From: an uncultured Clostridia bacterium
GTDB lineage: Bacteria; Bacillota; Clostridia; Oscillospirales; Acutalibacteraceae
NCBI GenBank assembly: GCA_945863885.1
Contig: CAMAZY010000022.1
Span: 1 to 43,398 of the forward strand
DNA length: 43,398 bases
Direction of reading: 5' to 3'
Shown here: piece after piece, positions 15,948 to 31,525 of the stretch
Position numbering within the stretch: the first letter of the stretch is position 1
How the letters are laid out: each line of letters starts with the position of its first letter
Position numbers and translations under genes: made by a program
Notes under the pieces: generated by a model
The model's database searches: none
What the model was told of the DNA's origin: nothing
The model's input: the letters and a program-made list of their open reading frames with translations, nothing else

Positions 15948-16022
15948 GGCCCGGTGGTCAAGCGGTTAAGACACCGCCCTTTCACGGCGGTAACACGAGT
16001 TCGATTCTCGTCCGGGTCACCA
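15948..16022 (+). tRNA. tRNA-Glu (anticodon TTC), CCA encoded
   Basis: 75 nt. Acceptor GGCCCGG / CCGGGTC; anticodon arm CCGCC-CTTTCAC-GGCGG; T loop TTCGATT. It is co-transcribed with tRNA-Met. Confidence 0.97.
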
Positions 16023-16056
16023 AAAATCCCGTTCACATTTAGTGGACGGGATTTTT
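16022..16056 (+). terminator. Terminator of the tRNA operon
   Basis: AAAAATCCCGTTCAC pairs with GTGGACGGGATTTTT around a 5-nt loop. From 16057 to 16263 I see only low-complexity DNA and a second GACGGGATTTTT. Confidence 0.9.
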
Positions 16057-16263
16057 ACTTATTACCTCTTCACTCTTCACTTTTTCCTCTTCCTGACTTC
16101 GGACGGGATTTTTGGGAAGTAAGAGGTAAGAGGGAATAGGGAAGAAGTGCGGGCACAGGGAACGCCCTGCTATCGGTCGGTTATTTGTCGCAGAGAAAGC
16201 TTAGATCTCTGATACGAGCATTCATAATCGGAAAAGCAAGCAAAAACGGATTGACACAATTTT

Positions 16264-25398: not shown

Positions 25399-25480
25399 TT
25401 ATAATCGACAGACTTCCCGACACGGACAAGCCGCTTCTGCGGGAAGAGACTTCCCGTCGGCACAGAGGTAACCCGCGACC
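25399..25480 (+). repeat. Intergenic repeat R3, copy 2
   Basis: Runs from TTATAATCGACAGAC to CCCGCGACC, with GCCGCTTCTGCGGGAA in the middle. Its tail is the hairpin array at 25484-25552. Confidence 0.7.
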
Positions 25481-25483
25481 TTC

Positions 25484-25552
25484 ATGTGCCCTTGGCACAT
25501 ATCATACGCCGTAGGCGTATATCATTCATCATATGCCGTAGGCATATATCAT
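25484..25552 (+). repeat. Array of three short hairpins in front of dnaX
   Basis: Three 17-nt hairpins: ATGTGCC-CTT-GGCACAT, ATACGCC-GTA-GGCGTAT and ATATGCC-GTA-GGCATAT, separated by atc or atcattcatc. The stem sequences change but pairing is kept. The array ends 23 bp before the dnaX ATG, so it would be in the leader. Confidence 0.7.
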
Positions 25553-25575
25553 TTTAATTTTCCGGGGGTGTGAAA

Positions 25576-28249: not shown

Positions 28250-28386
28250 AATGAATAATGAATAGTGAAAAGTGAATAGTGAATAGTGAATAGTTGCGGT
28301 CGCGGGTTACCTCTGTGCTGACGGAAAGTCCTTACCCGCAGAAGCGGCTTGTCCGTGTCGGGCAGCCTGTTGATTTTATTATTATA
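28250..28386 (-). repeat. R3 repeat copy 3 with tattcac-type tail
   Basis: 28298-28386 is R3 inverted (GGTCGCGGG .. GCAGAAGCGGCTTGTCC .. ATTATAAT). Its tail, 28250-28297, is a run of gaatagt/gaaaagt heptamer-like units, the same tail as at 42925-42966. From 28401 to 28467 a partial forward R3 follows (CCGCAGGGAAAAG, TTTCCCGAC, GCGACC). Confidence 0.6.
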
Positions 28387-29063: not shown

Positions 29064-29603
29064 ATGCTTGGATTAAAACGCGGTACGGTCGCTCTTTACC
29101 CGCACGAAAAAGCGTGGGAAGAGGAAGCGGCAAAAACGATTGAAACGCTGAAAAATATCCTCGGTGATACCGCCGTCGAACTTCAGCACGTCGGCAGTAC
29201 GTCAATCAAGTCGATTCAGGCAAAGCCTATTATTGATATTGCGGTCGGCGTCCGTTCACTTGACGAGGTTATGGATTTCGAAGCAGAGCTTTTGCAATAC
29301 GGGTTTTATCACAGAGAAACCGACCTTGAGAATCAGCTTCTTTTTGCCTGTGGCAGTTATTATGACGGAAGCGGAGAACTGCAAACACATTTTATTCATG
29401 TTGTCATTTACGAAAGCCGGGAATGGAAAGATTATATCAATTTCAGAGACCACATGAACGCAAACGCAGAAGATGCAAAACAATACGAAGCCTTAAAGCT
29501 TCGGCTTGCGGCTCAAGCGCCGATTGATATCGGCCGTGAAAAATACCTGAAAGGCAAGCACGGCTTTATCACCGGAATACTTGAAAAAATATCAACCGAT
29601 TAA
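29064..29603 (+). CDS. GrpB (UPF0157) family, nucleotidyltransferase-like protein
   Basis: 179 residues. The hallmark VELQHVGSTSIKSIQAKPIIDIAVGV matches the GrpB family, whose fold belongs to the DNA polymerase beta-like nucleotidyltransferases (G-S motif and D-x-D-like residues). Substrate and cellular role are not known. AGGA precedes the ATG by a few bases. It lies between smpB and ssrA; either it shares the smpB transcript or the block is a chance neighbourhood. The ssrA promoter starts 11 bp after its stop. Confidence 0.88.
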   Translation: MLGLKRGTVALYPHEKAWEEEAAKTIETLKNILGDTAVELQHVGSTSIKSIQAKPIIDIAVGVRSLDEVMDFEAELLQYGFYHRETDLENQLLFACGSYYDGSGELQTHFIHVVIYESREWKDYINFRDHMNANAEDAKQYEALKLRLAAQAPIDIGREKYLKGKHGFITGILEKISTD

Positions 29604-29613
29604 AATTTTCCTG

Positions 29614-29641
29614 TTGACTTTACAGTGAAGTCGGATATAAT
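29614..29641 (+). promoter_or_regulatory. Promoter of ssrA
   Basis: TTGACT, 16 bp, TATAAT. A short leader with a CAAAAGC / GCTTTTG hairpin followed by ATTTTT precedes the mature 5' end. Confidence 0.8.
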
Positions 29642-29682
29642 AGAAGTCCCAAAAGCTTTTTCTGCTTTTGATTTTTACACAT

Positions 29683-30029
29683 GGGGACGAAAGGATTTCG
29701 ACGGGGATTCTGAAGTACGATAAGCGGGTAGTGATGCAGACTCACTTTAAACACTGCAACCTAAAAATAAACGACAACAAAACTGTCTTAAAGGCTGCTT
29801 AAATGCGGCCCGTCTGAGCGGAGAGTACTGCGGCTTCGCATCAGGCGTCGATTAGCAGTGAACGTGAACAGCCGAACATTCTCATAGGCTGTCATGAGCA
29901 AGAGGATACCGAGCTTTAAAGCCTGTCGTCCGGCGTTTTAGCAAGGGAATTTTAAACGAACGACTCCACCCGAAGAAAGTTGTATGGATGGGCTTTCGGA
30001 CGCGGCTTCGATTGCCGCCGTCTCCACCA
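29683..30029 (+). ncRNA. ssrA: Transfer-messenger RNA
   Basis: 347 nt with encoded CCA. Rescues stalled ribosomes by adding a degradation tag. The 5' GGGGACG pairs with CGTCTCC before A-CCA; the T arm GGCTTCGATTGCC is near the 3' end. The conserved 5' GATTTCGACGGGGATT is present. The tag frame ends GCTGCTTAA (29794-29802). By alignment with the usual AUAAAC-resume arrangement, the resume codon would be GAC 29773, giving DNKTVLKAA after the tRNA-borne alanine. Most tags end LAA or VAA, so the Lys is unusual. The 3' end abuts a 129-bp repeat. Confidence 0.96.
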
Positions 30030-30157
30030 AAAGCGCAACATAAATGTTGCTAAGATAATAGAGAATAGATAATAGATAATAGTGAATAGATAGATTTTTT
30101 ATCCGTGCGCTTTTGTACTATTATCTATTCTCTTTTATCTATTATCTATTATCTAAA
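30029..30157. repeat. Cassette repeat, left copy
   Basis: 129 bp identical to 30520-30648. Starts at the last base of the tmRNA CCA. It contains AAAAGCGCA (30029-30037) and its inverse TGCGCTTTT (30106-30114), plus a second, longer inverted pair made of taatagata-type sequence (30053-30083 with 30117-30154). The two pairings exclude each other. Its right edge supplies the AAAGGAG of the following gene. Confidence 0.95.
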
Positions 30158-30168
30158 GGAGTTTTGTC

Positions 30169-30534
30169 ATGGCTTCAAGTAGTGTTGTATTGGAAAAATC
30201 GTTGGATTTTGCAGCAAGAATTGTCAAGTTAAGTCAGTATTTATCAAAAGAGAAGCACGAAACAATTATTTCAAAGCAAATTATAAGAAGCGGTACATCA
30301 ATCGGTGCAAACGCCAATGAAGCCATATATGGGATTTCCAAATCAGATTTTATAGCAAAATTGCAAATCTCATTAAAGGAAACTGCCGAAACGGAGTATT
30401 GGATTCGATTGTTAATGAAAACGGATTATTTAACAGAGCAAGAGGGTCAATCCCTGCTCAAGGATTGTTTAGAGATAAAGCGGATTTTAATATCCACTTT
30501 GAAGACTGCAAAAGCGCAAAAAAGCGCAACATAA
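30169..30534 (+). CDS. Four-helix-bundle protein (23S rRNA intervening-sequence protein family)
   Basis: 121 residues with the complete family pattern: SLDFAARIVKLSQYL, SKQIIRSGTSIGANANEA, SKSDFIAKLQISLKETAETEYWIRLL and LEIKRILISTLKT. Relatives are found inside 23S rRNA intervening sequences, as free-standing genes, and as accessory proteins of some retroelements (bAvd); the biochemical role is unclear. The AAAGGAG at 7 nt straddles the edge of the left repeat, and the last five codons and stop lie in the right repeat, so gene and repeats form one unit. Its codons are more A/T-rich than its neighbours, which suggests transfer. Confidence 0.93.
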   Translation: MASSSVVLEKSLDFAARIVKLSQYLSKEKHETIISKQIIRSGTSIGANANEAIYGISKSDFIAKLQISLKETAETEYWIRLLMKTDYLTEQEGQSLLKDCLEIKRILISTLKTAKAQKSAT

Positions 30535-30648
30535 ATGTTGCTAAGATAATAGAGAATAGATAATAGATAATAGTGAATAGATAGATTTTTTATCCGTGCG
30601 CTTTTGTACTATTATCTATTCTCTTTTATCTATTATCTATTATCTAAA
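30520..30648. repeat. Cassette repeat, right copy
   Basis: 129 bp, no difference seen from 30029-30157; unit length is 491 bp. Its first bases encode the end of the four-helix-bundle protein. Confidence 0.95.
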
Positions 30649-30684
30649 ATGCTTTCCTCTTGCGCAAAAGCCGCAGACGAAAGC

Positions 30685-30719
30685 AAAACCCGGGCAACGA
30701 CATTCCGCTGTCCGGGTTT
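30685..30719 (-). terminator. Terminator of the SDR gene
   Basis: AAACCCGG / CCGGGTTT arms, followed leftward by TTTTGCTTT. Confidence 0.7.
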
Positions 30720-30723
30720 CCTG

Positions 30724-31452
30724 TCATACCGTTATTCCGCCGTCCACGCAAAGCGTCTGCCCGGTGATAAACGAAGCGTCCTTGCCGGCAAAAAAGCCGA
30801 CGGTGGCGGCCACGTCCTCGGGCAGTCCGATTCTTGCCATGGGCGTTTCTGCGACAACCTCTTCTTTTGCCTGTTCGTCAAGCTCGTCGTTCATTTTCGT
30901 GTCAATCAGCCCGGGGGCTATACAATTGACCGTGATTCCCGACGGGCCGACCTCTTTGGCAAGTGCTTTCGTAAACCCGATCAATCCTGCCTTAGCGGCA
31001 CTGTAATGTACCTCGCATGAGCCGCCGCTTACGCCCCACATTGAGGATATGTTGATAATTCTGCCGTCATGCCGTGCAATCATACCCGGCAAAAGCAGCT
31101 TTGTCAAAAGCATGGCGGAGGTAAGATTGACCGAAAGAACGTCGTTGACCCGATTCTCCTCGGTGAACTGAAAAAGCTCACGGTAGGAAAGCCCTGCGTT
31201 GTTGACAAGGACGTCAACCGTTCCGATGGCAAGTGCTTTTTCGGCAAGCTGTTTTACTTGTTCCCGGTCGCTCAGATCCGCCTGTATTGCCGACGCCGAA
31301 ACGCCGAAGCGTTCTTCGATTTCACGGCAAAGAAGCATAGCGTCCTTTTGAGAGCGGTGATAGTGAACCGCAATGTCAAAACCCATGGAGGCAAGCTTCC
31401 GAGAAATTGCCGAGCCGATACCGCCCGAAGCGCCGGTGATGAGAGCAAGCAT
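30724..31452 (-). CDS. Short-chain dehydrogenase/reductase, FabG-like
   Basis: 242 residues, close to FabG (about 245). NADP-binding TGASGGIG near the start, NNAG, catalytic Ser in ISSMWG, Tyr/Lys in HYSAAKAGLIGFTKAL, and the C-terminal ITGQTLCVDGGITV are all typical of 3-oxoacyl-ACP reductases. No other fatty-acid gene is adjacent, so it may be a paralogue acting on another carbonyl. ATG 31450-31452 is chosen because AAAGGCGG stands 7 nt upstream; an ATG two codons earlier is too close to it. It follows the acetyltransferase gene by 73 bp on the same strand. Confidence 0.92.
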   Translation of the reverse strand: MLALITGASGGIGSAISRKLASMGFDIAVHYHRSQKDAMLLCREIEERFGVSASAIQADLSDREQVKQLAEKALAIGTVDVLVNNAGLSYRELFQFTEENRVNDVLSVNLTSAMLLTKLLLPGMIARHDGRIINISSMWGVSGGSCEVHYSAAKAGLIGFTKALAKEVGPSGITVNCIAPGLIDTKMNDELDEQAKEEVVAETPMARIGLPEDVAATVGFFAGKDASFITGQTLCVDGGITV

Positions 31453-31525
31453 TGTCATTCCGCCTTTCGCAGTTTTTTCAATTATATCGGGTAAGCAAAT
31501 GAAAGTCAAGGCTTGTTACGGTTGC

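Follow-up and report, generated by a model that had tools for sequence, protein, structure and literature searches.

Organization of the tmRNA locus

The window, i.e. the whole stretch of 43,398 nucleotides analysed here, harbors a protein-coding gene directly behind the tmRNA gene, enclosed by two copies of a repeat hereafter called the leader module. The features of this locus, all on the plus strand, are as follows:

29683..30029 (+), tmRNA, the host RNA gene, which is intact and reaches its CCA
30029..30157 (+), left leader module, copy 1 of the 129-bp repeat, from the direct-repeat search
30169..30534 (+), gene of a PF05635/TIGR02436 four-helix-bundle protein of 121 amino acids, from the ORF and profile searches
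30520..30648 (+), right leader module, copy 2 of the 129-bp repeat, which contains the final four codons of the gene and its stop

A direct-repeat search of the window returned one family, made of two copies of 129 nt spaced by 491 and 100% identical (a value that was rechecked), in agreement with a sequence-only reading of this DNA that had placed two identical repeats around a gene of the 23S-IVP type. The gene scores 89.4 bits against the PF05635 23S_rRNA_IVP profile (cut-off 33.8) and 96.5 bits against TIGR02436 (cut-off 24). Its product is basic (pI 9.2) and has solved relatives in 2rld_A (E 1.8e-46) and 2gsc_A (E 0.00086). The PF05635 protein is under purifying selection, with pN/pS values of 0.07-0.24 in ten pairs whose synonymous sites are mostly saturated (one pS estimate exceeds 1). 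The source genome being a draft of 67 contigs, an assembly error within the repeat is possible; the same leader-gene-leader layout occurs in L276, L280 and L300, which stem from other assemblies.

The tmRNA ends at 30029, the first base of the left repeat, which thus starts on the final A of the CCA, as had been noticed; the first base of the element proper could be 30030, because an A precedes the rest of the repeat at both places. The right repeat does carry the end of the gene. The further claim that the left repeat provides the ribosome site holds in part, since the repeat stops right before the GGAG (30158-30161) and therefore lends only the A-rich start of that site. The PADLOC models of anti-phage defence proteins gave 0 matching families at E 0.01. 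A short-chain dehydrogenase gene lies nearby (30724-31509, minus strand), as is the case for the docked PF05635 genes of L080 and L119, each at a different RNA gene; the relatives' tmRNA loci revealed no homolog when this gene was considered as possible cargo.

The leader module has two alternative pairings

From the CCA onwards, the module comprises a (9 nt), q (a short hairpin that overlaps a), b, a'' and b', which occupy the following positions in the left copy:

30029..30037 (+), a, from the pairing analysis
30035..30050 (+), hairpin q, from the RNA fold and the promoter and terminator scan
30059..30092 (+), b, a heptad arm, from the repeat search and the pairing analysis
30106..30114 (+), a'', the partner of a, from the pairing analysis
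30122..30155 (+), b', a heptad arm and the partner of b, from the repeat search and the pairing analysis

The two mutually exclusive pairings that had been assigned to each repeat were recovered: either a pairs with a'' (9/9), or hairpin q forms along with the long b:b' helix (91%). The RNA fold of 30028-30160 (−44.2 kcal/mol; z −7.3; 0/200 shuffles as low) contains q and b:b', to which a:a'' is the alternative in the window module.

Across copies, the modules hold hardly any sequence in common, yet their plan, a-q-b-a''-b', is constant and the alternative pairings are conserved. The first pairing tests set a'' by its match to the a of the same module, which favours own pairs; the test was therefore repeated free of that bias. 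In 14 modules of the window type, b:b' scored 19.8 with the own partner versus 12.5 with swapped partners (p 0.0005), and a:a'' scored 8.6 versus 4.9 when a'' could lie anywhere in the region (0/5000 permutations). A second set of 17 modules was drawn from 22 pattern matches, leaving out one match each for having no module, a contig-end cut, an inner deletion, an interruption and a truncation. There, own a:a'' pairs scored 9.0 versus 7.1 without placement bias (0/5000 permutations), and both a:a' and a:a'' persist through compensating changes. The b:b' pairing of this second set was no better within copies (11.3) than between copies (11.7), so that b:b' covariation rests on the 14-module set.

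Docking on tRNA and tmRNA genes among relatives

The docking at an RNA-gene 3' end that had been read from the window is borne out in related genomes, the evidence base being one genome per species and mostly draft assemblies. PF05635 is present in 32 of the 34 congeneric genomes, with 105 matches over the cut-off, 103 of which had flanks and enter the counts. ARAGORN found a tRNA or tmRNA gene at most 500 bp upstream and on the same strand at 24/103 loci, the RNA genes of these docked loci being upstream and same-strand in 35/35 cases; the other 79 genes are undocked on tRNA by this program. The docked congeneric proteins (29 rows, of which five were assigned by eye and are excluded from the 24) all fall within one 49-row part of the 103-row tree (support 97/91).

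In a named collection, ARAGORN counted 33 docked loci among the best 80 relatives of a longer list. Rfam, run on 4 of the 47 named loci left undocked by ARAGORN, added L293 (tRNA) and L298 (tmRNA), bringing the count to 35/80; the docked loci include 25 of the 27 most similar among these best 80 relatives. Sampling the taxonomic family yielded a match at E 1e-20 in 129/300 genomes and 69/135 genera, and 15 of the best 29 loci (own one aside) were docked according to ARAGORN, L364 at a tmRNA. The window, L298 and L364 therefore make three genomes with the cassette at tmRNA. Beyond what had been read from the window, the same architecture is found at 16 kinds of tRNA, a second module of the window sits at tRNA-Glu, and the arms have a period of 7 bp (see below). 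A literature search, with subscription papers largely outside its reach, returned no report of tRNA-docked PF05635 genes.

The tmRNA arrangement is not one that is fixed, with diverged repeats, in all relatives, which the sequence-only reading had named as the outcome that would speak against mobility. None of the listed PF05635 matches adjoins the tmRNA 3' end in 26 readable congeneric flanks (two of them short, 23 and 147 nt), one of which (L027) carries a module without the gene, as judged by eye.

Several observations concern neighboring sequences. In L017, L018, L021, L030, L032, L036 and at the tRNA-Ala of L167, a conserved sequence of about GACGAACACC..., unlike the module, directly follows the CCA of the tmRNA or tRNA. 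In L176, L179, L190, L193, L194 and L196 the module is preceded by a short stretch that is not a tRNA and that ends approximately in GCTGTAAACACA or a like sequence, and Rfam gave no match in the sequence preceding the modules of L176, L190, L193, L194 and L196. Among phages, two records matched (44-45% identity; no annotation).

Changes of host RNA and edges of the copies

A tree of 71 docked proteins, which probably includes one element twice (as L080 and as L294), covers 16 tRNA kinds and tmRNA and requires 45 host-RNA changes, against a least number of 16 and a shuffled mean of 54.0. As none of 200 shuffles was as low as 45, docking sites are partly inherited. Ten docked pairs were compared, and copies at different tRNAs share 67-86% DNA identity: 86% over 579 bp (Ser/Gln), 84% (Val/Gln), 81%, 80% and 80% (three further pairs), 80% (Pro/Leu), 76% (Val/Ser) and 67% (Val/Met). 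The mobility formerly suggested from the identical repeats is thus supported over evolutionary time, by the host changes on the tree and by the likeness of copies at different tRNAs.

The copies are bounded on the left by the 3' end of the RNA gene and on the right by the region of the stop codon. Between copies at different tRNAs, the identity is lost no more than about 30 bp from that codon. On the left, the identity of the pairs runs into the tRNAs, which are similar to one another, so that the boundary at the CCA is deduced from where the modules begin. Compared with the two other tmRNA-docked copies, the window matches from the tmRNA through the stop of the gene (30534 and 30539). The pairs L276/L359 (both tRNA-Gln) and L297/L372 (both tRNA-Lys; 94% over 3.3 kb) look like inheritance.

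Plain sites, solo modules and leader-gene-leader forms

A module scan of this genome detected a full module at 7 of the 38 tRNA 3' flanks; the gene is absent at five of them, and module and gene occur together at tRNA-Thr (C15) and tRNA-Gly (C65). The tmRNA, whose module was missed by the scan (its first hairpin is too weak), is the eighth site, and two weak cases (p 0.06 and 0.09) were left uncounted. The second docked element of the window is such a solo module:

16023..16148 (+), solo module with no gene, directly after tRNA-Glu (15948-16022)

BLAST searches with this tRNA-Glu module returned five copies in its own genome, every one starting at a tRNA end. Among 27 fetched matches from other genomes, 11 lie in modules abutting a tRNA recognized by ARAGORN and three more, judged by eye, follow the 3' half of a tRNA; the remaining matches are partial or located after other sequence. 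Readable flanks were available for 25 further tRNA-Glu loci, and no clear module is present at any of them: seven have hairpin arrays of the Gut-1 kind (by eye) and others a plain terminator. L256, L265 and L274 gave weak, unshuffled module scores, and the tRNA-Glu locus of G013 has a PF05635 gene behind a Gut-1-kind hairpin array. One plain site, the tRNA-Glu locus of L261, is homologous to the window on both flanks and has a plain terminator; the distance from the CCA to the stop codon of the next gene is 119 nt there versus 294 nt in the window.

Sites without module, with the module alone and with module-gene-module are all seen (L261, the five solo tRNAs and the window, respectively). Leader-gene-leader repeats measure 251 bp (98%) in L300 and 129 bp (100%) in the window, are 96% identical in L280 and 92% in L276, and weaker ones exist besides; the leader-repeat score reaches 30 or more at 9/62 loci (99% of the null at 24.5, null maximum 55, the L080/L294 pair counted twice). 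The second leader of L300 precedes an unrelated gene, and in L280 a further diverged copy lies downstream.

In L175 and L198 a module follows the 3' half of a tRNA-Val. An intact tRNA-Val lies further upstream (by 1120 and 780 bp, respectively), an arrangement that would fit an island having inserted into the tRNA and displaced the module. A heptad arm also occurs after recR in the window (28250-28345, plus strand), followed by a GC-rich tail like that behind solo modules, and a similar tail, inverted, precedes dnaX (25440-25485, minus strand). These sequences, recognized by eye, are probably remnants of related modules that have decayed.

Comparison with rRNA intervening sequences and Gut-1 RNA

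An inverted pair spans the gene of the window (30118-30154 with 30544-30580, 86%), a trait that corresponds to the complementary ends of 23S rRNA intervening sequences (IVS). Similarly, inverted arms surround the gene at 54/103 PF05635 loci, versus 1/132 control ORFs and 4/2000 random placements, and at 38 of the best 80 named loci, including Bacteroidaceae, Campylobacterales, Cloacimonadota and Chitinophagaceae (taxa as given in the database records). The arms have a period of 7 in all 44 arms that were testable, i.e. those of at least 24 nt among 50 arms of the heptad class. One report describes the 23S rRNA IVS of Coxiella burnetii as having tandem heptamers next to the S23p gene, along with complementary ends that pair into a stem, and calls it selfish; the structured RNA gene with which it is associated remains functional (PMC4990558). 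The proposed kinship with rRNA IVS is supported in this respect: protein family (S23p/IVP), heptamers, inverted arms and a functional structured RNA host are common to both. In contrast, the 23S rRNA IVS sits within rRNA helices, whereas the element of the window stands behind a finished tmRNA or tRNA 3' end; the a-q-b-a''-b' leader, the solo leaders and the leader-gene-leader forms are further differences.

Gut-1 RNA (RF01706) is a noncoding RNA recorded from human gut sequences only (PMC2864571). A Gut-1 match lies within about 250 bp upstream of at least 13 of the 109 listed PF05635 matches. This orphan Rfam family has matches in at least 27 of the 34 congeneric genomes and at least 21 matches in this genome, often behind tRNAs or just before PF05635 genes. 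It resembles the leader modules in its hairpin arrays, its genus and these positions, but its layout is other than theirs, and no match at the gathering score was found in the window when RF01706 was compared with the window modules; one copy at 25476-25554 (minus strand) scores 43 bits, below the cut-off. As for other comparisons, Dictyostelium retrotransposons target tRNA genes (PMC5006619) and likewise use tRNA gene flanks as safe sites; they are eukaryotic retrotransposons, whereas the bacterial cassette is without such an enzyme.

Origin of the docked cassettes

We propose that the feature of the window is probably a single copy of a minimal mobile cassette whose family docks on tRNA and tmRNA genes, the best reading being that these cassettes are kin of rRNA IVS. 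Each cassette consists of a folding leader of about 130-250 nt and one gene for a basic four-helix-bundle PF05635 protein, and docks directly behind the CCA, leaving the host RNA intact with a new 3' trailer.

It is worth weighing this proposal against a passenger role, in which tyrosine integrases acting at tRNA 3' ends would have brought the cassette, either alone in trans or within larger islands, the protein serving another purpose. The 3' ends of tRNA and tmRNA genes are known integrase targets, and integrase-type genomic islands share these target sites with the cassette. The sequence-only reading had reported no integrase, which is true of the ten ORFs formed by the IVP gene and its nine neighbours, where Pfam detected no recombinase or integrase, and not of the whole genome, where 11 Phage_integrase matches exceed the cut-off; help in trans is therefore possible. 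Furthermore, 4/56 docked loci, versus 0/393 in the null, have a downstream att-like sequence that repeats the 3' end of the RNA at 15/18 or better, namely L351 and L353 (18/18 each), L106 (G009:C33; 16/18) and L355 (15/18), 224-1196 bp behind the docked gene; L279 has a copy of 14/18. We therefore keep the integrase explanation for some copies. As a general account it is unlikely: 52 of the 56 docked loci have no such copy within the available flank of at most 1400 bp, and the sequence common to the copies stops at the end of the gene. For the window itself an integrase island is a misfit, the element containing no integrase and no duplicated RNA end (best copy downstream, 12/18).

The module could instead be a cis-regulatory switch placed behind tRNAs for a resident cellular gene, the tRNA link reflecting a regulatory operon rather than mobility. 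Two alternative pairings with compensating changes, and a gene directly behind the leader under strong purifying selection, are what such a switch would display. We nevertheless regard it as improbable, given the leaders without gene at five tRNAs of this genome, the 17 host RNA labels scattered over the protein tree, the unrelated gene behind the second leader of L300, and the position of a'' and b' after the first possible terminator, which is odd for attenuation. Still further down in probability, and hardly credible, is a leader acting as a folded signal moved in trans by a Y1 (REP/IS200-like) transposase or a reverse transcriptase. Conservation of structure rather than sequence agrees with it, as does the four-helix-bundle fold of Avd, the accessory protein of diversity-generating retroelements, which resembles that of PF05635 proteins (PMC10053308). 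Profile searches of this genome, which is 97.97% complete, returned no match for Y1_Tnp (PF01797) or RVT_1 (PF00078). The REP/RAYT model thus finds no enzyme among these matches, the reverse-transcription model is disfavoured, the resemblance to Avd is limited to the related fold, and the link to reverse transcriptases that had been envisaged for this DNA is not supported.

Returning to the mobile cassette, we suggest that the PF05635 protein binds the folded leader, either as RNA or as single-stranded DNA. The gene of the window may be expressed by read-through from the tmRNA promoter, since the sole promoter-like site detected on the plus strand of 29600-30760 precedes the tmRNA. By analogy with rRNA IVS, the b:b' helix might be a site for RNase III, and a:a'' or a:q might terminate the host transcript; for a:a'', this role is inferred, the terminator scan of the window module having given no terminator-like site on the plus strand. 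Leader-gene-leader forms would result when a second copy recombines into a leader that is already present, and they could revert to a solo leader; the entry of a first copy into a new site may involve host or trans-acting enzymes.

More speculatively, and with some doubt on our side, these cassettes might constitute a new class of mobile elements. The sole protein of such an element would be a four-helix-bundle ring that binds nucleic acid, and its sole cis signal the folded leader; it would move from one tRNA or tmRNA 3' end to another while encoding no transposase, integrase or reverse transcriptase. The branches of this class would then be the rRNA IVS, the Gut-1 arrays and, in several phyla, the PF05635 genes flanked by heptads.

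In the portions of the literature available to our search, no function is given for PF05635 proteins or for the rRNA IVS that carry them. Being the sole gene of a unit found at the ends of many different tRNA and tmRNA genes would provide this family with a function that can be tested and with a definite nucleic acid to act on. If our proposal is true, mobile DNA would settle on essential RNA genes while leaving them unbroken, the orphan Gut-1 RNA would gain a context, and a type of movement needing no recombinase in the element might be exposed. In gut bacteria, the docked cassettes seem to be a type of minimal mobile element that has so far been overlooked.
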